DNA of 64,000 bases from an uncultured Bacteroidales bacterium (GTDB taxonomy: Bacteria > Bacteroidota > Bacteroidia > Bacteroidales > Paludibacteraceae): contig CAIWCC010000131.1 in NCBI GenBank assembly GCA_903911085.1, forward strand, positions 1 to 64,000, in the 5' to 3' direction. The position numbers and the translations under genes were made by a program. Of this stretch, positions 1 to 41,179 are shown one piece after another. Each line of letters starts with the position of its first letter. Position 1 is the stretch's first letter. The notes below the pieces were generated by a model that saw only the letters and a list, made by a program, of their open reading frames with translations, searched no databases and was not told where the DNA came from.

Positions 1-570
1 GAATCTTTTGTTTTCATTATAACTGATTGGTAGTCAGCTGTAAAGATACGAAATTTCAAGGTCTTTTCCAAATAAAATAACAGTTATTTTGCTGTATATC
101 AAATAATTATATCGCTATATAATTTTTGTCATGTACTAAATCAAATCATACTAAAAATCAATTTACGAAGTAAATTTCTTATCCGTTTTTTTATCCGCTC
201 AATCAGCGAAAATCCGCGTTATATTCTTATTAATCTTATTTACAACTCTTTCAATTATAAAACATAGTGGATTTTCTGGTTTCATTGTGAACCAACGGTC
301 AGCATAGATAATTTTTGTGCAAAAGCTATACCACAAAGAAACACAAAAAATCAACACAAAGGTTCACAAAAAAGTACAATAGCACCTCAAAAAAAGAAAT
401 AACTAATTTTATCATATCAGCTAAAGTATAAATTTTTTTTTGTAAATTTGCCGATTCAGAATTGATAATCAAAAAATCGAATAATTATGACATTTTCATC
501 TGAAAATGCTTTTTTACTAAGATTTGAGTGAGCAGTTTTCGAGATTAGTAAGTAACGTCTCAACAAAAAT
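1..570. other. AT-rich intergenic stretch at window edge
   Basis: No convincing coding region on either strand. The stretch is AT-rich with short homopolymer runs. Its only structured part is the TAnnTTTG box followed by a small hairpin, listed separately. It may be the downstream flank of a gene outside the window. Confidence 0.5.
443..515 (+). promoter_or_regulatory. Possible promoter followed by short hairpin/T-run
   Basis: TAAATTTG (443-450) matches the Bacteroidetes -7 consensus TAnnTTTG. About 40 bases downstream lies an 8-bp inverted repeat, CATTTTCA/TGAAAATG (491-508), followed by a T-rich stretch. Together they could define a very short transcript or an attenuated leader. No good -33 TTG is visible at the right spacing, so the call is weak. 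Confidence 0.25.
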
Positions 571-600
571 AACAATTTCGACAAGGGGGCATGCCCCTTG
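571..600 (+). repeat. Palindromic repeat, copy 1, left of DUF4160/DUF2442
   Basis: AACAATTTCGACA is followed by the near-perfect palindrome AAGGGGGCATGCCCCTT. The same composite recurs in the same orientation at 1244-1275, after the DUF2442 gene, so the two-gene module lies between direct repeats. The palindrome would form a GC-rich hairpin in otherwise AT-rich DNA. Confidence 0.7.
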
Positions 601-720
601 AAATAAATACTTTTATCATTAGAAGAAGGTTAGGCTCATTTTTAGCAATACATTACTGCTGAAATTGTGGAGGTAGTAAAAAAGGGTCGTAAATTAGAAA
701 TTACAAATTCAAAAAATAAT

Positions 721-987
721 ATGCCAACACTATCCATGTTTTTTGGAATTATTATAAGAATGTATTATGCACCAAAAGAACATAATCCACCTCACATACA
801 CATTTATTATCAAGACTTTACAGCTGTTATAAATATAACAAACTGTGAATTATTGGAAGGTGAATTACCATCAAGACAGAGTAGATTAGTACTCGCGTGG
901 ATAGAAATTCACAAAGATGAATTATTAGCAGATTGGAAATTGTGCCAAAATGGAGAAAAACCGTTTGCTATTGACCCTTTAAAATAA
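721..987 (+). CDS. DUF4160 domain protein
   Basis: A small protein of about 88 residues. The start MPTLSMFFGI matches the usual N-terminus of DUF4160 proteins (MPTISxFYGIxI), followed by RMYYAPKEHNPPHIHIYY with the conserved PHIH motif. An in-frame GTG at 667 would add 18 residues of low-complexity sequence and is less likely. DUF4160 genes are very often paired with a DUF2442 gene, as here (next gene 6 bases downstream), and such pairs are suspected toxin/antitoxin-like modules; no activity is assigned. The pair lies between two palindromic direct repeats (571-600, 1244-1275), which suggests a mobile cassette. No clear TAnnTTTG promoter is seen immediately upstream. Confidence 0.8.
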   Translation: MPTLSMFFGIIIRMYYAPKEHNPPHIHIYYQDFTAVINITNCELLEGELPSRQSRLVLAWIEIHKDELLADWKLCQNGEKPFAIDPLK

Positions 988-993
988 ACGATT

Positions 994-1236
994 ATGTATT
1001 TAGCAATAAAGAATGTGCAACCCACACCAAACTACGAACTTATTCTTACTTTCGAAAATGGTGAAACAAGGTTGTTTGACATGAATCCATATTTAGGGAC
1101 TGGAATTTTTAAGGAATTAAAAGATATTTCATTGTTTTATTCTGTAAAAGTTAGCTTCGATACAATAGAATGGGAGAATGAAGCTGATCTAGACCCTGAA
1201 ATACTTTATAATGACAGTAGAAGTTTAAACGAATAG
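994..1236 (+). CDS. DUF2442 domain protein
   Basis: An 80-residue protein with the DUF2442 pattern: an N-terminal beta strand with Y-x-L-I-L-T-F-E-N-G-E-x-R-x-F-D-M, a short helix (FKELKD), and the C-terminal IEWENEADLDPEILY block. It starts 6 bases after the DUF4160 stop codon, so the two are almost certainly co-transcribed. In other genomes this family accompanies DUF4160 and is proposed to be the antitoxin-like partner, which is inference only. Its length is normal for the family and no truncation is seen. A copy of the palindromic repeat begins 7 bases after its stop codon. Confidence 0.85.
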   Translation: MYLAIKNVQPTPNYELILTFENGETRLFDMNPYLGTGIFKELKDISLFYSVKVSFDTIEWENEADLDPEILYNDSRSLNE

Positions 1237-1243
1237 AAAATAT

Positions 1244-1275
1244 AACAATTTCCCGACAGGGGGCATGCCCCCTTG
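1244..1275 (+). repeat. Palindromic repeat, copy 2, right of DUF4160/DUF2442
   Basis: The same composite as 571-600: AACAATTTCCCGACA, then AGGGGGCATGCCCCCT. It differs by a two-base insertion and a one-base-pair longer GC stem. Direct orientation and placement at both ends of the gene pair suggest a cassette boundary. The hairpin could also act as a terminator, although only a weak T-run follows. Confidence 0.7.
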
Positions 1276-1303
1276 CATTAAACATTTTTCAACATATTAA
1301 TTA

Positions 1304-1476
1304 AATAGCATTCTGCTATTGTTCGCACGCACGAAACCTGAGAAATTTCAATACGCGAAACAAAGAAGAGTCAATGAGCAAATGCTCGTGCCAACCGGCG
1401 CGGGCTTTTGACTTATTCTTCTTTGTGGGCTTCTCAGGGCCTCGTGCGTGGATAAGGATTTTGCCTGCGCTTTTTG
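1304..1476. repeat. Structured repeat element, copy 1 (long bulged stem-loop)
   Basis: A small hairpin (AATAGCA-TTC-TGCTATT, 1304-1320) is followed by a long nested stem. The outer helix is CACGCACGA (1326-1334) with TCGTGCGTG (1442-1450). The second helix is CCTGAGAA (1337-1344) with TTCTCAGG (1431-1438). The inner helices are ACAAAGAAG (1360-1368) with CTTCTTTGT (1418-1426), and AGTCAA (1369-1374) with TTGACT (1408-1413). The apical hairpin is GTGCC-AACC-GGCGC, followed by GGGCTT. A second copy at 40940-41107 keeps the unpaired AA, GCC and GGGCTT segments and the apical hairpin but has different helix sequences, so structure is conserved over sequence. It lies directly upstream of the mod gene. 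Confidence 0.65.
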
Positions 1477-1541
1477 CATCCCAAAAGCACTGATTAAACC
1501 TTATTTTCGACCAATGGTAGTAAGCGCCAAAGCTGAAACCA

Positions 1542-3545
1542 ATGGATAAACAAAGCCTACTTGCCAAAATTAAACAACTCGATAATCTTACTGATGAAGA
1601 ACGTTCCGAGTTAGTGGAATTATTAAATACAAAAAAGAAATACGGCCTGATATGGGAAGATAAACCCGAAGATGTGGAAGAGCAACTCCGCACTCAATTA
1701 CCCATACTACGTGAAGTCGTGGAAAAACGCATTTTAGCCACCAAATCTGATAGCGAAGCCGCTACTCCTAAAACCATAAAAACCAATCTTTTTACTGAGG
1801 AAGAAAATCAAATAAATCATAGTTCAGACGATGTTGCCGCACCCAACCACATTCTTATCGAAGGCGACAACCTACACGCTCTTACTGCACTTACTTTTAC
1901 CCACGAAGGAACGATTGATGTAATGTATTTTGACCCACCGTACAATACCGGAAATAAAGACTTTAAATACAACGATAGTTTTGTAGATAAAGAAGATAGC
2001 TACCGACACAGTAAGTGGTTATCTTTTATGCACAAACGGCTTGAAATTGCAAAGCGATTGTTGAGTGACAAAGGAGTGATTTTTATTTCGATTGATGATA
2101 ATGAACAGGCGCAAATCAAATTACTTTGTGATGATGTATTTGTTGATAAGAATTTTATTGGACTTTTGCCAACAATAATGAACTTAAAAGGCAATCAGGA
2201 TCAATTTTGTTTTGCAGGTACTCATGAATATACTCTTGTATATTGTAAAGAAAAATCAATGTTTACCCCGAATTCATTTAGTTTTGATTTAGAGGAACTC
2301 GAAGAATGGGAAGAAGATGAAATTGGATTATATAAAAAAGGAGCTCCATTAAGAGCAACTGGAGCAGAGTCAAATAGAGAAGATAGACCATTAATGTTTT
2401 ATCCAATTTTAATTGACAAGAATAATAATGTATCTACTATAACAGAAGAAGAACATAGCTTTATTTATGACAAAACAACTAAAACATTTGATGACAATCA
2501 CTTGTCTGATTTGATTTCTAATTATCTTGAAATTGATCTTGAAGTTATATTGCCAAAAGTTGATTCAAATCAGCACGGAAGATGGAGATGGGGTTTTAAT
2601 AAAAATACAATCAAGAGACTTGAATACGATGTAATAGTTTCAAGAACAAAGAACGGTATTTCATTATATAAAAAACAAAGACCAGAGTTGGGAGATCTAC
2701 CTTCAAAGAAACCTAAATCAATATTTTATAAACCAGAATATAGTAGTGGGAATGGTACCTCACAGTTAAAAGATATATTTGACAATAAAATATTTAATAA
2801 TCCAAAACCTCTTGAATTAATTAAAGACTTCATTACAATTGGTTCAAATAAGACCTCAATAATTCTTGACTTCTTCGCCGGTTCCGGCACAACCCTTCAT
2901 GCAACTATGCAACTCAATGCAGAAGATGGTGGTAATCGTCAGTGCATTTTGGTAACTAATAACGAAAATAATATTTGTGAAGAAGTTACTTATGAGCGCA
3001 ATAAACGTGTAATTCAAGGTTATACAAATGCCAAAGGAGTACAAGTGGAGGGATTGACGAATAATAACTTCCGCTACTACCGAAGCGAATATGTCGGTCG
3101 TGACCATACACATAAAAACAAAAAAGAATTGGTATTAGCAGCAACTGAGCTGCTTTGTATCAAAGAAGATATTTACACCGAATTAACTGAACTAAACGGT
3201 CAGAAACTCAATAACAAGGTGGTTCGTTGCTTTAGCGATAAAGGCAAATACATGTTGGTTATTTACGACGAAGAAGCCATTGAAACCCTCCTCCCGTTAA
3301 TCAGCACTATCAACTCACACAAAAAGATAAAAATCTACATTTTTGCACCCGGTCAATATCCATTTACCGAAGAGTTTGAAGATGTGTTGGATAAAGTGGA
3401 ATTATGTGCTTTGCCCGATGCCATTTACAAGGCTTATGCCAATGTATTGCCGAAAAAGAAAGCAAAACCGGCAGTTTATTCCAATGAAGAAAGTACAGAA
3501 TCTGAAACCAATGAGATTGTAGAACCCAATTTGTTTACTGTATAA
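1542..3545 (+). CDS. mod: Type III restriction-modification methyltransferase (Mod)
   Basis: A 667-residue N6-adenine DNA methyltransferase of the beta class, with catalytic motif IV before the SAM motif. The N-terminus is a helical Mod-type region. HILIEGDN precedes DPPYN (131-135), the catalytic motif, and FFAGSGTT (444-451) is the SAM-binding motif. The target-recognition region between them (about 200-430) is visibly more AT-rich than either flank, suggesting domain exchange. It would methylate adenines in an asymmetric site and give specificity to the Res subunit encoded 12 bases downstream. The start ATG at 1542 follows the structured repeat element, and no TAnnTTTG promoter is obvious just upstream. 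No simple-sequence repeat suggesting phase variation is present. Downstream neighbours extend the unit beyond a plain type III system. Confidence 0.93.
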   Translation: MDKQSLLAKIKQLDNLTDEERSELVELLNTKKKYGLIWEDKPEDVEEQLRTQLPILREVVEKRILATKSDSEAATPKTIKTNLFTEEENQINHSSDDVAAPNHILIEGDNLHALTALTFTHEGTIDVMYFDPPYNTGNKDFKYNDSFVDKEDSYRHSKWLSFMHKRLEIAKRLLSDKGVIFISIDDNEQAQIKLLCDDVFVDKNFIGLLPTIMNLKGNQDQFCFAGTHEYTLVYCKEKSMFTPNSFSFDLEELEEWEEDEIGLYKKGAPLRATGAESNREDRPLMFYPILIDKNNNVSTITEEEHSFIYDKTTKTFDDNHLSDLISNYLEIDLEVILPKVDSNQHGRWRWGFNKNTIKRLEYDVIVSRTKNGISLYKKQRPELGDLPSKKPKSIFYKPEYSSGNGTSQLKDIFDNKIFNNPKPLELIKDFITIGSNKTSIILDFFAGSGTTLHATMQLNAEDGGNRQCILVTNNENNICEEVTYERNKRVIQGYTNAKGVQVEGLTNNNFRYYRSEYVGRDHTHKNKKELVLAATELLCIKEDIYTELTELNGQKLNNKVVRCFSDKGKYMLVIYDEEAIETLLPLISTINSHKKIKIYIFAPGQYPFTEEFEDVLDKVELCALPDAIYKAYANVLPKKKAKPAVYSNEESTESETNEIVEPNLFTV

Positions 3546-3557
3546 CAACCACCCACA

Positions 3558-5858
3558 ATGATACTACTCAAAAAATACCAGGAAGAAGCTGTTGACAGTT
3601 TACTCACCAACACATATAAATTGCTTAAAAAACCTATGGCTCGCCACACACAGGTGCTCAAAGCTCCTACAGGTTCAGGTAAAACAGTGATGATGGCTGC
3701 ATTTCTGAATAAGCTATGTGAGGAAATACCTGACCGATTAGACCTTCCAAAGCGTGAAGTGGCATTTGTTTGGATTGCTCCAAACAAACTGCACATACAA
3801 AGCTATATATCGTTGAAAAACTATTTCTCTGAACTGCGTTCCATTAAACCAATTCATTTCGAAGATATTACCGACAATGCCCTCAAACCAAACGAAGTAC
3901 TTTTTGTAAACTGGGAAAGCATAAACAAAGAGAAAAATGTGATGGTACGCGAAACCGAAACAGGCAAATCGCTGTATCGGTATGTAAATGGTGCCCGTAT
4001 GAACGATGTTGAAATTGTAGTGATTATTGACGAAGAACACATGTTTGCCAATACCAAAACAGCCAAACGAACTGCCGAAGTATTGCAGAATATTTACCCG
4101 AAAATTGAAATCCGAGTTTCGGCTACTCCGGTAACTAACACCGATTACAAAACAGTGGTGGAACGTGCCGATGTGGTGGAACAGGAAATGATTAAAGAGG
4201 GCATTGTGCTGAATCCTGCCTTAGATACGTACATTCAAAACAACCGCACACTTAATCAGGCATTGATTGATATTGCACTCGAAAAACGGGTTCAATTAGC
4301 CGAAGCCTATAAACGCTTAGGGAAAAATATAAATCCGCTTTTGCTCATTCAATTACCAAATGACACAACGGAGGACAACAGTGTTGAGGATAAAAAAATC
4401 ATTGATGAAGTTACACAATATTTGGAACATACTTGTGGAATTACAACACAAAATGGGAAATTAGCTATTTGGTTATCAGGTAAAAAAGAGAATTTAGATA
4501 ATCTGGAAGATTACGACAACATGACCGAAGTGTTGATTTTCAAACAAGCCATTGCATTGGGTTGGGATTGTCCGCGAGCAGCTGTATTGCTCATTTTCAG
4601 GGAACTTCATAGCCAAACATTCACCATTCAAACCGTTGGTCGTATTCTTCGTATGCCCGAACAAATACATTACCCCGACAGCTTGCTGAATCAGGGTTAT
4701 GTATATACCAACTTAAGCAAAAACCAAATTGAAGTGGTGCAGGACGATATGACCTATATCACTTCCAATAAGGCAATCCGTAAGGAACAATATGCAGCGG
4801 CCAATCTTTCTTCAACTTATTACAATACGCGCTTGGTACGTAATCGGTTGGGTTCTAAATTCAAACGTGCATTATACAATGTCGCTGAAAAGCATTGGGG
4901 TTTCACCCGCGATTTGGATAACGACGATTTTTACACTCGTAACCGAAAAGTGCTTGAAACCCGCATGATTGTAGCTGATGTTACAAAAATTGAAGTTATA
5001 ATCCCTGAAAATATTATGCTTACAGGCGAACTTCAAATTGAGCGGGTAGAACAAACCGCTCGTTTTGCCAAAACAGAAGGTGAACTGAATGTATTGTTCC
5101 GTCATTTCTGTAGAGCACATGTCGGCGATTATGCAGTGGTGGATTCCACCCCTATTTTGGAAATGGCATTAAGGCTTTTGTTCGAAGAGTATTTGAATTT
5201 CAATGAGTTCGAAACCAATAAAATCATGTTGTACGAAAACAACCAACCGCAATTTGTGGAATTGATTTCGTTGGCACTCGAAGAATTTACCGCTATGCAG
5301 GAAGCCAAAGCCAAAACAGCCACCAAAGATAAACAGGTTTATCCGTGGGAAGTGCCTGCCGAGCGCATTTACAACGAACAATACAATGAGCAGGACAAAC
5401 CTGCACATGCTTTAATTCCTTTCTACGAAAAGGCAAAAGTATCGTTGCCAGAGGTTCGTTTTGCAGAATACTTAGAAGCCAACAAAGCGCATTTGGAGTG
5501 GTGGTACAAAAACGGAGAATCTGCCAAAGAACATTTTGCAGTACCATATATCGACTACATAGGCAAAGAAAGTTTGTTTTATGTTGACTTTATTTTATTG
5601 ACTAAGAGCGGGGTACGTTGCTTATTCGATACAAAGTCAGAAGGTAGCGACCCAGCAAATGCACATTTGAAGCACAATGCATTGGTTGAATACATTGAAT
5701 CACTGAATGCCAAAGGTATTCCAACAATCGGTGGTATCATTATTCGGAAAGAAACCGGAGGTGTTGAAACCTGGCGATATTGCAAAAATCGCATAGTAAA
5801 CACAAATGACCTTACCGGTTGGGATTTCTTTAATTTGAATGCACCAGTAAATATCTAA
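3558..5858 (+). CDS. res: Type III restriction helicase-endonuclease (Res)
   Basis: A 766-residue superfamily 2 helicase with a C-terminal nuclease domain. Visible motifs: Walker A APTGSGKT (36-43), the DEAD-like box DEEH (158-161), motif III SATP (around 187), and motif VI QTVGRILRMPEQ (about 358-369). Near the C-terminus, YVDFILL (D677) and FDTKSEG (D691, K693) fit a PD-(D/E)xK nuclease core with a D-x-K arrangement. It is predicted to translocate along DNA and cut when two unmodified sites are engaged with Mod. At 766 residues it is shorter than classical Res proteins (about 900-1000). It follows mod by 12 bases and is co-directional with the small protein downstream, so the three are probably one transcript. 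Confidence 0.9.
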   Translation: MILLKKYQEEAVDSLLTNTYKLLKKPMARHTQVLKAPTGSGKTVMMAAFLNKLCEEIPDRLDLPKREVAFVWIAPNKLHIQSYISLKNYFSELRSIKPIHFEDITDNALKPNEVLFVNWESINKEKNVMVRETETGKSLYRYVNGARMNDVEIVVIIDEEHMFANTKTAKRTAEVLQNIYPKIEIRVSATPVTNTDYKTVVERADVVEQEMIKEGIVLNPALDTYIQNNRTLNQALIDIALEKRVQLAEAYKRLGKNINPLLLIQLPNDTTEDNSVEDKKIIDEVTQYLEHTCGITTQNGKLAIWLSGKKENLDNLEDYDNMTEVLIFKQAIALGWDCPRAAVLLIFRELHSQTFTIQTVGRILRMPEQIHYPDSLLNQGYVYTNLSKNQIEVVQDDMTYITSNKAIRKEQYAAANLSSTYYNTRLVRNRLGSKFKRALYNVAEKHWGFTRDLDNDDFYTRNRKVLETRMIVADVTKIEVIIPENIMLTGELQIERVEQTARFAKTEGELNVLFRHFCRAHVGDYAVVDSTPILEMALRLLFEEYLNFNEFETNKIMLYENNQPQFVELISLALEEFTAMQEAKAKTATKDKQVYPWEVPAERIYNEQYNEQDKPAHALIPFYEKAKVSLPEVRFAEYLEANKAHLEWWYKNGESAKEHFAVPYIDYIGKESLFYVDFILLTKSGVRCLFDTKSEGSDPANAHLKHNALVEYIESLNAKGIPTIGGIIIRKETGGVETWRYCKNRIVNTNDLTGWDFFNLNAPVNI

Positions 5859-5910
5859 TTTAACTTTTTCAAATGTAACAAATATACCTTATTTCTAAAA
5901 CATAAATGAT

Positions 5911-6129
5911 ATGGCTAAAAAAGGATTAGACACCACGTTTCTACACTATGGTATTCGTAAAGAAGATATTACTTTGATAGAAACACTTTGCATCAATCAT
6001 AACTTAGAATTCGATTGGGTAAAAGAAGATTTATTACGGGAGTTTCACGAGCGTAAAATTCGTAATCAGGAGCTTGATGAAAAGTCTATTGAAAAGGTTA
6101 TTGAAAAAGCACTGACGAAGATAAAATAA
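5911..6129 (+). CDS. Small protein associated with DNA-modification systems
   Basis: A 72-residue soluble, charged, mostly helical protein (MAKKGLDTTFLHYGIRKEDI at the start, ending in a lysine-rich helix). It resembles small proteins found beside modification-type defence operons and annotated only as DNA modification system-associated; no biochemical role is known to me. It lies 52 bases after Res on the same strand and before the DndD-like ATPase. This position suggests a component or regulator of the whole system. No helix-turn-helix or nuclease motif is visible. The family assignment is from memory of the pattern and is moderately sure. Confidence 0.7.
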   Translation: MAKKGLDTTFLHYGIRKEDITLIETLCINHNLEFDWVKEDLLREFHERKIRNQELDEKSIEKVIEKALTKIK

Positions 6130-6136
6130 AATTGAA

Positions 6137-6198
6137 GTAATAGTATGACTTGAAGTCATGCGATTACTGCACATAGTAGGGGCGCGACTTTAAGTCGC
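6137..6198. repeat. Two adjacent hairpins after the small protein gene
   Basis: A nested hairpin (GTAAT...ATTAC enclosing ATGACT-TGA-AGTCAT, 6137-6167) is followed by GCGACTT-T-AAGTCGC (6184-6198). They lie between the plus-strand small protein gene and the 3' end of the minus-strand PIN toxin gene. They may serve as a transcription terminator for either strand or as an intergenic repeat. No long T-run follows. Confidence 0.5.
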
Positions 6199-6235
6199 AC
6201 TCCGACTAAGGTCAATGCGAAAAGATAATGATTGG

Positions 6236-6625
6236 TTAAAGCGTGTGAGGGTTTATCACGCTCAATCCGATTATATTTTTAAAATCGGAACTATTTCGAG
6301 TAATAAGTGTGGAATTAGCTGCTAAAGCAGTAGCAGCAATTATAGCATCGGGAAGTTTTATTTTGTATTTTTTTCGTAAATCTATGCAGATATCAGCTAC
6401 TTCTTTGGATAATTCAATAACGTTTGCATCATCCATAAAATCGGTAAGTAGTTGATATTCTTCAATTGTAGTATTGAAACCTAACACTTCGATTTTGGTA
6501 ATTACAGAAATATTTGGAACTGCATTTATTACAGTATTCATAAATTGCATACCATTAGCAGTTATCTTATTTCCAAGATAATCAATAATGGCATTGGTGT
6601 CAATTAAATAGCGTTGCTGTTCCAT
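6236..6625 (-). CDS. PIN-domain ribonuclease toxin (VapC-like)
   Basis: A 129-residue PIN domain protein. The acidic active-site set is visible: D9 in YLIDTN, E46 in KIEVLGF, D93 in LPDAIIAATA, and D114 in NSSDF. These coordinate metal ions for RNA cleavage in VapC toxins. Length is typical and no residue is missing, so it is probably active. Its start codon lies inside the end of the upstream antitoxin gene (22-base overlap), the usual arrangement of a type II toxin-antitoxin pair. The pair is on the strand opposite to the surrounding defence operon and separates its small protein from the DndD-like gene. It may guard against loss of the island, which is inference. Confidence 0.9.
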   Translation of the reverse strand: MEQQRYLIDTNAIIDYLGNKITANGMQFMNTVINAVPNISVITKIEVLGFNTTIEEYQLLTDFMDDANVIELSKEVADICIDLRKKYKIKLPDAIIAATALAANSTLITRNSSDFKNIIGLSVINPHTL

Positions 6626-6819
6626 TCTTCTCTGCTTTGTTTTACGTAATCTTGTAAGGCATTGGTAGTAGCAGGGCTCAATTTGCCAGCATATTTTTCC
6701 GAAAGGCTTAGAGGTTGATTAGCGGATCTCTTTATTACTTTTAGAATATTTAAATCTTCCAAATCGGCTAATAACTTGTATGCCTTGTTATTATTTATTT
6801 GAATTACTAATGTTTCCAT
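6604..6819 (-). CDS. Antitoxin partner of the PIN toxin
   Basis: A 71-residue protein starting METLVIQINNNKAYKLL. The open frame extends upstream to 6933, but the extra N-terminal residues are hydrophobic and overlap the promoter, so the ATG at 6819 is preferred. The N-terminal strand followed by helices (ALQDYVKQSREEWNS at the C-terminus) is common in Bacteroidetes antitoxins that precede PIN toxins. The gene overlaps the toxin by 22 bases. A good promoter (6847-6876, minus strand) lies about 30 bases upstream, so the pair is transcribed independently of the defence operon and is probably autoregulated. Confidence 0.8.
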   Translation of the reverse strand: METLVIQINNNKAYKLLADLEDLNILKVIKRSANQPLSLSEKYAGKLSPATTNALQDYVKQSREEWNSNAI

Positions 6820-6846
6820 TTTAATTTGTTTTTTAATATTACGATA

Positions 6847-6876
6847 CAAATATACTATCATTTTGAATAAAACCAA
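6847..6876 (-). promoter_or_regulatory. Promoter of the PIN toxin-antitoxin pair
   Basis: Read on the minus strand: TTG (6876-6874), 19 bases, then TATATTTG (6854-6847), a full match to the Bacteroidetes consensus. It sits just ahead of the antitoxin ATG at 6819 and overlaps the longer alternative open frame, supporting the shorter start. Confidence 0.65.
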
Positions 6877-6955
6877 TGAAATGAAAACAAAATATTTATC
6901 AATAGAAATAAAGTTGGAAATTTCAACTGTCAACTAATAACTATCAACTAATATC

Positions 6956-8956
6956 ATGCTAATAAAACGAATTAAAGTCCGTAATTTCAAAACCTATCTC
7001 AATCTCGATTTAGATCTTTCGGTTGACGAAGAAAGACCAATTATTCTGATAGGTGGGGTAAATGGCGGTGGTAAAACTACGCTGTTCGAATCTATTTATG
7101 GAGCTTTGTATGGTTTGCAAATTCATACTGCCAAGCAATTTAAAGAATTGTTGAATGCTGGCTCGCTGGGTGCCGAAGACGAAAAAATCACCTTGGAACT
7201 GCATTTCACAGGACGCGTACTGAACGAGGAGCAACAATATGTGCTTACGCGGAGCTATATGCTTAATCCTGCGGGCAATCCGGTAGAAAATGTAAAGCTA
7301 AATATGAATGGCACTATTTTTCAATACGGCACTGCCACGCCACCAGCACAACGGGCAGAACAAGAAGCACAGGTAAATAAAATTATCAAAGCCAATTTGC
7401 CGCAGGAATTAAGTCGCTATTTCCTTTTCGATGCTATGGAAGCCGGTAGTTTGCTGAAAGAAGACCAACTGAACCGTGTAATCAAAGAGAACATCGAAAA
7501 TGTAATGGGCTTTAATAAATACATGCAGTTGGCTAAATCTTCAGAAAGTTTATATCAATCAATGACTGCGCAACGTTTGGAAGTGGAAATTGAGAAGAAA
7601 GAGTATGTTGAATTGGTTGAACAAAAAAAGGCAAAGGAAGCAGAATTAGCAGGTCTGGAATTGCAGCTACAGGACTCGCTACAATATTCTGTCGCCAGCA
7701 AAGAGTTGTACGATAACCTGAAAAGCGGTTTGAATCAGGAAACAACCATTAAAAACAAAATTGAACAGACAAAAAATCAAATCGATTCCATTCATAAAAA
7801 GGAAGATATTTTCAGAAATGAGTTGGATAGTTTTGTTAAAGACTTCGAAATCAACGTCTGCTTGCCAAAACTGACCGAAGCCATCAAGAATGAAGTAAGT
7901 CTTATTCTGAAAACGAAAAACGAGAAATTACAACAAAGCAATTCCAATGTAAATCCGGAACAAATAGAGGCAATAAGTGCTACTATCTTACATTTTCTCA
8001 CACAAAAGAAATTATTGCTAAAAGAAATTTCATTATCGGATATGGTGGATTATGTGATAGCTTCAACTTCTAATTCTAACACACATGACGAATATGATTT
8101 TCTGGATTTCTCAGAAGTAAAAGCATTGGAAGAATTATTGAATTTGAAAACCTCAAATTCATTTCCCTCACTCAACCAACAGCAGGTTGATTTGAATTTG
8201 GGTTTAAATCAAGTTTCAGGGTTAGAATACCAAATCGAACAAATGAAAGCTCAAATTGCAGGTCGTGATTATACCTTGCTAAAGGCTTATGAAGAAAACG
8301 AAGCGAACATTAAGAATTTTGAAATTAAGATAGGCGAGATTAAACTTGAAATAGGTAAAATTGCTAAAAAATTGCACCAATTTGATATTCAAATTAGTCA
8401 GGAACCTGACCCCAAATACGACACATTAGGTCGTCTTAAAGGCTTCTTCGAAGATGTAGCGAATCAATTGTTGAAAGTAAAGAAACAACAAATTGAGTTG
8501 AAAATGAAACAGGACTTAAATATCAATCTTACAGCTTACCGTGATGTAATTGACAGGGTTGAATTGTCTGAGAACCTGGCTAATCTTACTTTTAAAATCT
8601 TTCACAAAGCCGGAAATGAAATCTATTTGAATCAATTAAATACAGCTTCAAAACAGATTGTAGTTCAGGTGTTACTGAAATCTTTGCACGAATTTGGAGA
8701 TTATGATCCTCCGGTAATGATTGATACAGTAATGGGCGTATTGGATGAAACCAGTCGGGCAACAGTTATGGAGAATTACTTCCCGGAACTTTCGCACCAA
8801 ACATTATTATTGAGTTCCGATAGTGAAATCAGACCGGGAAGTGACTTTGATAAAATTGAACCTTTTGTATCAAAGGCCTACACGCTACAACGCGACAGGG
8901 AAAATCAACATACGGATATTGTAACGGGTTATTTTGGCAAAATATTAAATAATTAG
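6956..8956 (+). CDS. DndD-like SMC/RecN-type ATPase
   Basis: A 666-residue ABC-type ATPase with coiled-coil middle. Walker A is GGVNGGGKTT (33-42). A long charged coiled-coil region spans about 190-520. The C-terminal Walker B and D-loop, MIDTVMGVLDETSR (about 586-599), is followed by YFPELSHQTLLLSSDSEI. This C-terminal pattern and RYFLFDAMEAG (about 155) closely follow DndD, the ATPase of the DNA phosphorothioation complex. No DndA, DndB or DndC is present here. It is followed immediately (no spacer) by the HerA-type gene, so the two are co-translated. It probably senses or remodels DNA for the Mod/Res pair upstream. The embedded toxin pair on the other strand lies just before it. Start ATG 6956. 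Confidence 0.85.
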   Translation: MLIKRIKVRNFKTYLNLDLDLSVDEERPIILIGGVNGGGKTTLFESIYGALYGLQIHTAKQFKELLNAGSLGAEDEKITLELHFTGRVLNEEQQYVLTRSYMLNPAGNPVENVKLNMNGTIFQYGTATPPAQRAEQEAQVNKIIKANLPQELSRYFLFDAMEAGSLLKEDQLNRVIKENIENVMGFNKYMQLAKSSESLYQSMTAQRLEVEIEKKEYVELVEQKKAKEAELAGLELQLQDSLQYSVASKELYDNLKSGLNQETTIKNKIEQTKNQIDSIHKKEDIFRNELDSFVKDFEINVCLPKLTEAIKNEVSLILKTKNEKLQQSNSNVNPEQIEAISATILHFLTQKKLLLKEISLSDMVDYVIASTSNSNTHDEYDFLDFSEVKALEELLNLKTSNSFPSLNQQQVDLNLGLNQVSGLEYQIEQMKAQIAGRDYTLLKAYEENEANIKNFEIKIGEIKLEIGKIAKKLHQFDIQISQEPDPKYDTLGRLKGFFEDVANQLLKVKKQQIELKMKQDLNINLTAYRDVIDRVELSENLANLTFKIFHKAGNEIYLNQLNTASKQIVVQVLLKSLHEFGDYDPPVMIDTVMGVLDETSRATVMENYFPELSHQTLLLSSDSEIRPGSDFDKIEPFVSKAYTLQRDRENQHTDIVTGYFGKILNN

Positions 8957-10552
8957 ATGATGAGCACAATTAATTTTCAAGCCATTAGAGAAGCCGAAGG
9001 GTTAAAAGAAATTCTTTCGGATATTCGCATCAACATTGAGCAACGTATTAACCTGAATAAATACAGTCACCAAAAATCGGTAACGCTTAATGGCAACAAA
9101 ATAATGAGAATTTGTTTGTTGGCGGGTTTATCGTGCCCCGACGAACGAACCATGGAGGAACTCGAAGCCGTGCAATTATCGAAAACGAGCAATCGGATTT
9201 TCGATTCGTTTTTTACAACACATAATTTGAGCACCATCTATTCGGCAATGTTTAAATTGAGATACCGCAAATTACCCATCGATTGGGACAATTTGAATGT
9301 GAAAAGTAAACTGTTTAATGCCGAAATGTTTAGAGGCAGGCAATTGCTCTTAAACGATACGGTATTAGACGAATGGTTGCTGAATACTAATTCATTTAGC
9401 GGAAGTGGCAAAGCAGGCCGCATCCCTTATTTGAATTTGAATATAGGAACGTATGAAGACAATATTCCGGCACTCTTAAACTTAAACGGTCGGGATATTA
9501 CAAATACACAAATACTTGTTGCAGGCACCACAGGCTCAGGTAAATCAAATTTATTAGCTGTGCTTCTCAACGAAATCAGAAGTTTATCAATTGAAAGCTC
9601 TTATCCGGTAAATTTCTTGCTATTCGATTATAAAGGCGAATTCTCTGACCCTGCAAACAATGCATGGCTCAATTTATTTGAAGTAGATCGTAGTTCAATT
9701 CTCGACCCTATTTCAGCACCACTTCCATTTAATCCTTTCAAAGATTTTGTTGGTAAGGCTCAAAACGAAATAAATCTTTATTCTACCGAGCTTGCAACAG
9801 CCATTTGCTCCATTGACAACGCACGTATGAGTGCAAATATGAGCAACAGGTTATCTGAAGCTATTATTAATTCATACAAACGGACTCAAAACAAAGCAGT
9901 AAGTTTCGATTTAATTCTGAAAGAATACACCACACAACAGCCTGAAAGAGATAGAGATAAAGACGACAGCATTAAATCAGTGTTGAAACAACTTATTCGC
10001 ACAAACCTATTTGCAAAGGAAGATACTGTTGACCTAATCAAAGAAAGTTTTATTGTCAAAATGGATGGTTTCCCTAAAGATGGTCCAATAGCAAAAGCAA
10101 TTGTTTACTTTATTGTTTCTAAGCTCAATACCATTTACGAAAAACTACCGAAACAGGCAATGGATGATGACTGTGTTGAGCTCCGTCATTTCAGCATTAT
10201 CGACGAAGCTCATTATATGCTCGGTTTTGATAACAAACCCTTGCGTGATTTAATTGCCGTAGGTCGAAACAAAGGGCTAAGTATTATTCTGGCCACTCAA
10301 AACATGGATAGCTACAAAAGTGAGTATTTCGATTTCTATGCCAATGCACAATATCCGCTCATTATGAAACAGCAGTCTATAAACGATGGTGTCATTAAGG
10401 ATTTATTTGGTGTTTCGGGCAACGAATTTCAGGAAATAAAACAAGCAATATCCAGCCTCCAAAAAGGCGAATTAATAATCAAAAACCCTACTGCCATTGC
10501 ATTAGGGATGGGAAAAAGATACAAGAAAATTAAGGTAAGTCATTTGATTTGA
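8957..10552 (+). CDS. HerA/FtsK-type ATPase with possible DndE-like N-terminus
   Basis: A 531-residue protein. The C-terminal two thirds is a HerA-like translocase: Walker A GTTGSGKS (190-197), FDYKGEF nearby, Walker B IIDEAH (about 414-419), and an ATQNMDS sensor-like segment. The first ~140 residues resemble DndE in layout (IMRICLLAGLS, then a helix with LSTIYSAMFKLRYRK), suggesting a DndE-HerA fusion; this part is tentative. DndE binds nicked DNA in phosphorothioation systems, and HerA ATPases pump DNA together with nucleases. The start codon ATG 8957 directly follows the stop codon of the DndD-like gene, and a second ATG follows at 8960. It is the last gene of the operon, with a bidirectional terminator about 220 bases on. 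Confidence 0.8.
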   Translation: MMSTINFQAIREAEGLKEILSDIRINIEQRINLNKYSHQKSVTLNGNKIMRICLLAGLSCPDERTMEELEAVQLSKTSNRIFDSFFTTHNLSTIYSAMFKLRYRKLPIDWDNLNVKSKLFNAEMFRGRQLLLNDTVLDEWLLNTNSFSGSGKAGRIPYLNLNIGTYEDNIPALLNLNGRDITNTQILVAGTTGSGKSNLLAVLLNEIRSLSIESSYPVNFLLFDYKGEFSDPANNAWLNLFEVDRSSILDPISAPLPFNPFKDFVGKAQNEINLYSTELATAICSIDNARMSANMSNRLSEAIINSYKRTQNKAVSFDLILKEYTTQQPERDRDKDDSIKSVLKQLIRTNLFAKEDTVDLIKESFIVKMDGFPKDGPIAKAIVYFIVSKLNTIYEKLPKQAMDDDCVELRHFSIIDEAHYMLGFDNKPLRDLIAVGRNKGLSIILATQNMDSYKSEYFDFYANAQYPLIMKQQSINDGVIKDLFGVSGNEFQEIKQAISSLQKGELIIKNPTAIALGMGKRYKKIKVSHLI

Positions 10553-40939: not shown

Positions 40940-41107
40940 AAAAGCGTTAGCTTTTATTTCAGTTCCAGAAACTTCGACACTTTCAAGAACAAAAAGAAAT
41001 AAGTTAGTAAACGCCTGCGCCAAACGGCGTGGGCTTTAACTTATCATTTTTGTTCGGCAGTCGAAGGCCTCTGGAGCGTGATACAGTTATTGTTCACGCT
41101 TTTTTTG
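40940..41107. repeat. Structured repeat element, copy 2
   Basis: It has the same architecture as the element at 1304-1476. A small hairpin (AAAAGC-GTTA-GCTTTT) is followed by the outer helix CCAGA (40965-40969) with TCTGG (41070-41074). The second helix is CTTCGAC (40972-40978) with GTCGAAG (41060-41066). The inner helices are AACAAAAA (40988-40995) with TTTTTGTT (41047-41054), and ATAAGTTA (40999-41006) with TAACTTAT (41037-41044). The apical hairpin is GCGCC-AAAC-GGCGT, followed by GGGCTT. It ends in a terminator-like hairpin AGCGTGA/TCACGCT (41075-41100) with seven T. The helix sequences differ from copy 1, but pairing and unpaired segments are kept. Confidence 0.65.
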
Positions 41108-41179
41108 TGTCTATAAGTGAAGAAAAATATACTTTAAAACAAATATTGAACTAATTATTTACTTCAAAAAATTACATTT

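Follow-up and report, generated by a model that had tools for sequence, protein, structure and literature searches.

The locus described here lies in a 64,000-nucleotide stretch of DNA (contig CAIWCC010000131.1, positions 1 to 64,000 of the forward strand; hereafter the window) from the genome of an uncultured Bacteroidales bacterium of the Paludibacteraceae (assembly GCA_903911085.1). It includes five open reading frames (ORFs) on the plus strand at positions 1542-10552, coding, in this order, for a type III DNA methyltransferase (Mod), a helicase-nuclease (Res), a small protein (SP) of 72 amino acids (aa), a DndD-like ATP-binding cassette (ABC) ATPase and a HerA/FtsK-type ATPase (Table 1). 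The five families and their common strand had been named in an original prediction made from the sequence alone and were confirmed by the ORFs and by Pfam and PADLOC matches, as was the direct junction of the last two genes, with the HerA gene starting (8957) at the base that follows the stop of the DndD-like gene (8956). The genes are not all packed together as had been supposed: an 826-bp gap (6130-6955) between the small-protein gene and the DndD-like gene holds a VapBC-like pair on the minus strand, in which an ORF without a Pfam match overlaps the PIN-domain VapC-like gene and was taken as the antitoxin. The predicted absence of Dnd sulfur genes from the locus was borne out, as a Pfam scan of 28 window ORFs yielded no members of the DndB, PAPS-reductase (DndC) and aminotransferase-V (DndA) families, with six further ORFs of at least 200 aa and most of the small ORFs lying outside the scan and DndA, DndB and DndC not searched genome-wide. 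In the whole host genome the single DndD match is the window's own copy, and the DndE family PF08870 has no match at E 0.001.

Table 1 Features of the locus, with positions given in the window
Feature	Position	Strand	Basis
Mod, beta-class type III DNA methyltransferase, 667 aa	1542..3545	+	N6_N4_Mtase 3.9e-34; PADLOC MTase_III 1.9e-90
Hypervariable middle of Mod, residues 201-440	2142..2861	+	block identity vs 49 other loci
Res, superfamily 2 (SF2) helicase with C-terminal PD-(D/E)XK-like nuclease motif, 766 aa	3558..5858	+	ResIII 1.9e-15; REase_III 4.2e-18
Putative nuclease active site of Res, VD677F ... FD691TK693	5586..5636	+	invariant in 63/63
Small protein, Sp-DndD family, 72 aa	5911..6129	+	PF20306 8e-9, 35.9 bits, above cut-off 27.2
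DndD-like ABC ATPase, 666 aa, altered ABC signature	6956..8956	+	TIGR03185 8.4e-50; PADLOC DndD 5.4e-56; AAA_23/DndD family
Altered ABC signature LNTASKQ	8636..8656	+	other systems' DndD relatives: LSxGEKQ/E
HerA/FtsK-type ATPase, 531 aa	8957..10552	+	DUF87 1.3e-12; PADLOC DndH C-terminus 2.8e-28
Possible DndE-like (double ribbon-helix-helix) N-terminal domain of the HerA protein	8957..9388	+	helix order in the AlphaFold2 model
VapC-like toxin (6236-6625) and probable antitoxin (6604-6933)	6236..6933	-	PIN 2.7e-12 for the VapC-like gene
DUF4160 gene and DUF2442 gene, toxin-antitoxin-like pair upstream of Mod	667-1236		Pfam families

A contig scan with the HerA alignment gave 165 relatives, of which the best 80 were kept and the other 85 were not examined; the loci (numbered with L) were called with gene profiles built from the first matches. 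According to the record titles they belong mostly to Bacteroidota, with a few metagenome-assembled genomes labelled Ignavibacteria, Opitutales and Alphaproteobacteria. All five genes are present in 63 of the 80 loci, always in the order Mod-Res-SP-DndD-HerA, and in 14 of the 17 incomplete loci the contig ends within or next to a core gene, which leaves L063, L078 and L093. Where a locus extends 7 kb or more upstream of HerA (57 loci), the whole set is present in a single order and on one strand in 55 cases, from many families, and the conserved co-occurrence of the five families that had been proposed as a check is indeed found. Two of the loci, L041 and L042, do not differ from each other over 21.6 kb of one contig and probably represent one plasmid assembled twice, and 54/56 may therefore be the fairer count. 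The median gap is 14 bases between the small-protein gene and DndD (71 loci, with 83 bases or less in 67 of them) and 6 bases between DndD and HerA (78 loci), and the VapBC-like pair of the window is an insertion in this copy, outside the conserved set. L078, which has no Mod-Res beside its module genes, retains only a C-terminal part of DndD, with a relaxase-like gene some 7 kb upstream.

The Mod protein has the beta-class motif order (DPPY, target region, FxGxG) and adjoins Res, which is the arrangement of type III enzymes, and it matches Mbo45V (6.3e-49) and EcoP15I Mod (3.1e-34) in the PDB. The DPPY motif reported earlier is located at residues 131-134 and occurs in 56 of the 58 Mod proteins compared within the family, that of the window among them, the remaining two being cut by a contig end. 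In comparison with 49 other loci, the mean identity per 40-residue block is only 0.09-0.33 over residues 201-440 but reaches 0.70-0.87 for blocks 121-200 and 441-480, and this variable middle is presumably the target-recognition region expected of type III enzymes. The intact motifs of Mod and Res fit the earlier suggestion that adenine methylation serves as the self-mark, the methylated position, which we infer to be N6, being probable.

The helicase motifs of Res and its residues D677, D691 and K693 are invariant in 63 of 63 sequences. In the Res model, with a predicted local distance difference test (pLDDT) score of 84.6, SF2 helicases are the top fold matches and a nuclease fold was not seen among the best 50 Foldseek matches listed, while the putative nuclease residues are located on strands followed by a helix; the nuclease is thus putatively assigned as PD-(D/E)XK-like by motif and strand order and not by a fold match. 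No HKD nuclease family was found in Res by Pfam, which matched ResIII instead. As neither the small protein nor the DndD-like and HerA proteins gave a nuclease match with the Pfam, TIGR and PADLOC profiles, Res is the only visible cutter.

The small protein is not new, since the title of its family PF20306, "Small protein found in certain Dnd DNA modification systems", already ties it to Dnd; its residues G5, F10, G14, R16, D19 and W36 are invariant in 51 of 51 sequences. The C-terminus of the DndD-like protein had been thought to follow DndD closely, and the homology holds (see Table 1), but the TIGR03185 match of 169.9 bits over the full length is below the curated cut-off of 245.85 and the ABC signature is altered. 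Walker A is kept in all 68 members of the family, whereas the usual LSxGE is lost in all 68, with LN[AT]AS[KT]Q in 65 and LNAGAKQ in three of them; the DndD relatives of other systems keep it, namely LSSGEKQ in L012, LSEGEKQ in L013 and LSAGEKE in L015. This change suggests a clamp that may bind ATP but hydrolyse or release it differently from canonical DndD. The CxC zinc hook is absent from the DndD-like protein of the window, and a CxC string occurs in 2 of the 68 family members.

The best Foldseek match of the HerA model (pLDDT 87.4) is the C-terminal domain of DndH (7es4, E 1.7e-20, template modelling score 0.84 by target), and G190, T192-K196 (Walker A) and D416-H419 (DEAH) are conserved in 79 of 79 sequences. 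In the AlphaFold2 model, the N-terminus consists of strand residues 11 and 13, helices 16-31 and 46-58, strand residues 74 and 80, and helices 84-102, 113-131 and 134-142, so that the N-terminal 145 residues match the helix order given for DndE in section 13 of PMC10853773, with isolated strand residues only where the ribbon strands should be. Based on this model, the HerA protein possibly carries an N-terminal DndE-like domain. The profile PF08870 does not match the HerA protein of the window and matches its relatives in L043 (0.0017) and L085 (0.093) below the cut-off. Tests of the N-terminus with a DndE profile gave weak results (hmmsearch best E 0.005, hhalign probability 0.2% or less), this profile consisting of five rows, two of them the same protein and all of them HerA fusions, with the three unfused DndE loci L139, L140 and L142 left out; a profile search of the PDB for a DndE domain yielded nothing useful. 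In sister sets the DndE domain is clear, with E values of 6.7e-12 in L015 (PF08870) and 5.3e-9 at the L012 place.

Pairwise protein identities were correlated over 50 loci including the window, with near-duplicate loci kept in, and the values obtained are r=0.92 for DndD-HerA, 0.67 for Res-HerA, 0.62 for both Res-DndD and Mod-Res, 0.51 for Mod-HerA and 0.41 for Mod-DndD, none of the six being reached in 999 permutations. DndD and HerA co-vary tightly and Mod and Res are exchanged more freely, as can be seen in the pair L067/L068, where HerA and DndD share identities of 0.94 and 0.91 but Res only 0.53, and in L048/L059, with 0.98 for Res and 0.58 for Mod. The small protein stays closer to the DndD-HerA core than Res does in four exchange pairs: L045/L053 (63/71 residues identical, Res 0.46), L047/L053 (62/71, Res 0.46), L021/L023 (59/72, Res 0.57) and L076/L081 (46/71, Res 0.47).

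In a Res tree of 75 rows, three of which are exact duplicates, 67 system rows and three stand-alone ones (L132, L134, L136) form one clade with a Shimodaira-Hasegawa-like approximate likelihood ratio test (SH-aLRT) value of 97, apart from the five other stand-alone Res rows sampled. The system or stand-alone label needs three changes on this tree, which may be one gain and two losses. Recruitment of just any type III pair is not favoured, the system Res lying in one clade when contrasted with eight stand-alone rows that come from other searches and are in several cases long-branched.

With type III restriction-modification (R-M) systems such as EcoP15I and Mbo45V, the locus shares the DPPY motif, the variable middle and the FAGSG motif of Mod, the SF2 helicase with a PD-(D/E)XK-like motif in Res, and the adjacent mod-res order, and it adds to them the small protein, the DndD-like ATPase and the HerA protein with its possible DndE-like part. 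MADS, an eight-gene set, has a methylase and ATPases in common with it; the mads models that matched at E <=0.1 are mad8 (HerA 9.1e-19, Res 0.0025) and mad3 (HerA 0.061), with Mod and DndD judged among the best 25 matches listed. Hma (helicase, 5-methylcytosine (m5C) methylase and ATPase), as presented in an excerpt of PMC8565338, likewise shares a methylase and an ATPase and differs in its m5C methylase and its three genes. Both MADS and Hma were rejected as the identity of the five-gene set on gene content. From DndFGH, only the C-terminal motor of DndH (7es4) has a counterpart here, the HerA protein being the only product of the locus to match that system; no DndF or DndG was seen, and the HerA protein has 531 aa as opposed to the multidomain DndH, for which an excerpt of PMC10853773 gives a mean of 1,700 residues.

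The individual parts, as well as a HerA-DndE fusion beside a DndD relative, are already known: section 22 of PMC10853773 describes a HerA/FtsK-DndE fusion next to a DndD-related ATPase under the name "clade-3". Our locus resembles those sets in that a HerA protein, possibly with a DndE domain at its N-terminus, is encoded after the DndD-like gene, and differs from them in that no sulfur genes were found nearby, type III Mod-Res genes are present instead and the ABC signature is altered; sections 13, 14, 16 and 22 of that paper make no mention of type III Mod-Res with HerA-DndE/DndD sets. The CxC-ABC/PbeABCD sets in its section 16 are similar in combining a small protein, a DndD/CxC-type ATPase, a helicase-nuclease and sometimes methylases, whereas the window's DndD-like protein is without the CxC hook, its locus has type III Mod/Res and not an HKD-SF2 nuclease with cytosine methylases, and a HerA protein is present. 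Among the relatives found in our search, L012 (9750-15798) and L013 (8688-14522) possess a protein of 666-734 aa, a small protein, DndD and a DndE-HerA protein without Mod-Res; the first protein has a sigma-70 region 4 match and, in L012, a helicase-associated domain, and no methylase or sulfur genes were seen beside these four genes. L015, from a genome of the same phylum as the host, contains a PAPS-reductase (DndC-like) protein, DndD, DndB and DndE-HerA. The five-gene set was not found in the open-licence literature searched, and the 2020 ABC-ATPase paper by Krishnan and colleagues, which is outside that literature, may already picture it; the excerpts of PMC12839542 contain no DndD or DndE and those of PMC11514479 no DndD.

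We regard it as somewhat better than an even chance that the five genes make up a composite defence against invaders, in which a type III R-M system is joined to a co-evolving SP-DndD-HerA module that gates Res. The best argument for it is the combination of a module in which no other nuclease was seen with five genes that remain together. In the proposed order of events, Mod would methylate the host DNA, probably at adenine N6, at a variable target, thereby marking it as self, and Res would act as the nuclease. The small protein, the DndD-like protein and the DndE-like-HerA protein would form a DNA-scanning and translocating module made of a clamp resembling those of structural maintenance of chromosomes (SMC) proteins and a ring motor, a role in DNA sensing or translocation that the original prediction had also suggested for the two motors. 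This module would engage unmarked or abnormal invading DNA and deliver it to a Mod-Res complex, or license that complex, for cutting. Classical type III enzymes perform ATP-dependent cleavage upon the collision of two head-to-head sites, and with module-gated cutting restriction would not depend solely on such a collision. With rather less confidence, and somewhat short of an even chance, we suggest that the locus represents an undescribed motor-gated type III restriction, in which an exchangeable Mod-Res pair marks and cuts while an SMC-like clamp with a divergent signature and a DndE-like-HerA motor choose the DNA.

Several observations weigh against the composite reading, the chief ones being stand-alone Mod-Res pairs and a few modules without Mod-Res. 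When the Res alignment was searched against 395 genomes of the class, 13 genomes (numbered with G) matched, five of them by the helicase stretch only, and the remaining eight contain nine strong Res loci. The module is present at four of these (G000, G588:C2, G725, and G584, in which the contig ends within DndD) and missing from five (G588:C13, G551, G397, G608 and G107). Four of the eight system-clade Res in this class-wide sample are without the module, three of them assigned to the clade by the tree and one, G608, which is split over two contigs and not in the tree, by score only, and so Mod-Res can persist alone. No DndD was detected genome-wide at E 0.001 in G551 (56% complete), G397, G608 and G107, and the search of the phylum gave three further stand-alone Mod-Res pairs (L110-L112). 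The expectation that the module is consistently found beside Mod/Res thus holds in one direction, the module nearly always occurring with Mod-Res and Mod-Res often without the module.

As for the modules without Mod-Res, in L093 (Flavobacterium urocaniciphilum, 3-7729) SP-DndD-HerA follows an AAA_11/AAA_12 helicase, a PIN_4 protein, a 212-aa protein and an AAA ATPase, which is a different partner set for the same module, and in L063 the 2.0 kb upstream of the small protein contain two toxin-antitoxin-looking ORFs and no Res before the contig end. In G275 and G283, which belong to one family, the DndD and HerA relatives (L010, L011, L103, L104) are on separate contigs and no Res was found; a Mod-like match is on another contig of G283 and a below-cut-off Sp-DndD match on yet another, and there is no Mod-like match in G275. 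These open stand-alone DndD-like and HerA genes suggest a life outside the operon. Besides, 22 of the 80 loci have a gap of more than 350 bases between core genes, and the six inserted proteins that were scanned are Abi_2 (L023), RhuM (L048, L068), DUF1016/YhcG (L051), AlbA_2 (L019) and ParE (L016), others being alike by eye; as unrelated genes also sit in the operon, co-location alone is no proof of a joint complex. As for the DndE-like domain, its support from sequence is weak and no more than suggestive.

Many of these points would suit an operon with two functions, that is, an ordinary type III R-M system and an independent SP-DndD-HerA backup, abortive or anti-plasmid, for the case that restriction fails: same-clade Mod-Res occurs without the module, the module genes occur without Mod-Res in L093 and G275/G283, and Abi_2, RhuM and toxin-antitoxin genes are also present in the operon at some loci. 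We consider this unlikely, if by no means negligible, as all but two of the 57 module loci with sufficient room keep Mod-Res in a fixed order, toxic or nuclease domains were not detected in the module, and the system Res cluster in one clade. The module could also serve modification, with DndD and DndE-like-HerA bringing Mod to its sites as DndD-DndE do in Dnd and Res restricting alone. PMC10853773 (abstract and sections 14 and 16) does place DndD and DndE in the modification half of Dnd, and it describes DndDE cores accompanied by cytosine methylases; this explanation seems improbable nonetheless, given that Mod has the type III motif layout, that Mod-Res pairs of the same clade are also found where the module is missing and that the HerA protein is most like DndH of the restriction complex.

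The DndD homology, the set of DndC-like, DndD, DndB and DndE-HerA proteins in the same phylum (L015) and the fact that DndA, DndB and DndC were searched in the window only would be in line with a cryptic phosphorothioate-modification (Dnd) system having these three genes elsewhere in the genome. It is, however, very improbable in view of the lack of sulfur genes among the scanned ORFs, of a second DndD and of a recognised DndE in the host, while the window's DndD family is without the LSxGE kept in L015 and the set is tied to Mod-Res. Chance neighbourhood in a defence island, without any unit, would agree with the toxin-antitoxin-like pairs that flank and interrupt the locus, but it is contradicted by the fixed order in 55/57 loci and the short median gaps within the module; we give it hardly any credence and reject it.

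The locus joins, in a conserved operon mostly of Bacteroidota, two defence families that are usually treated apart, type III restriction and Dnd/DndFGH. If the composite reading is right, its annotation as "type III R-M" or "DndD-like" alone would break up a single unit. Since DndD-HerA is retained when Mod-Res is replaced, the operon is a natural experiment on what a nuclease gains from an ABC clamp and a HerA motor, a question common to Dnd and HerA systems, and the altered ABC signature provides a direct site for mutational tests.

Just upstream of Mod there is a long imperfect hairpin (window 1295-1527), with a partial copy at 40965-41118. Its DNA fold has a z value of -4.84, none of 200 shuffles being as stable, and it matches 10 places in the host genome, itself included. 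The copies read in four other contigs are near toxin-antitoxin or restriction-type genes, for example another type III pair (C150) and a HEPN/MNT-like pair (C106), as judged by reading the ORFs, and the stems vary in step, as judged by eye. The hairpin looks like an attC-like or repetitive extragenic palindromic (REP)-like separator of defence genes. It was rejected as a part of the five-gene system, since the copies located by a profile search are confined to the window and further contigs of the host genome, with none in the relatives' loci searched. Further upstream, the near-identical palindromes CAAGGGGGCATGCCCCTTG and CAGGGGGCATGCCCCCTTG at 582-600 and 1257-1275 flank the DUF4160-DUF2442 pair.

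A complete five-gene set is also contained in L114 (MT835906.1), a 15.6-kb record from human gut/faeces labelled Bacteriophage sp., together with relaxase-like and integrase-like genes, named so from reading of the sequence; on account of these genes the molecule may not be a phage but a mobilizable element.

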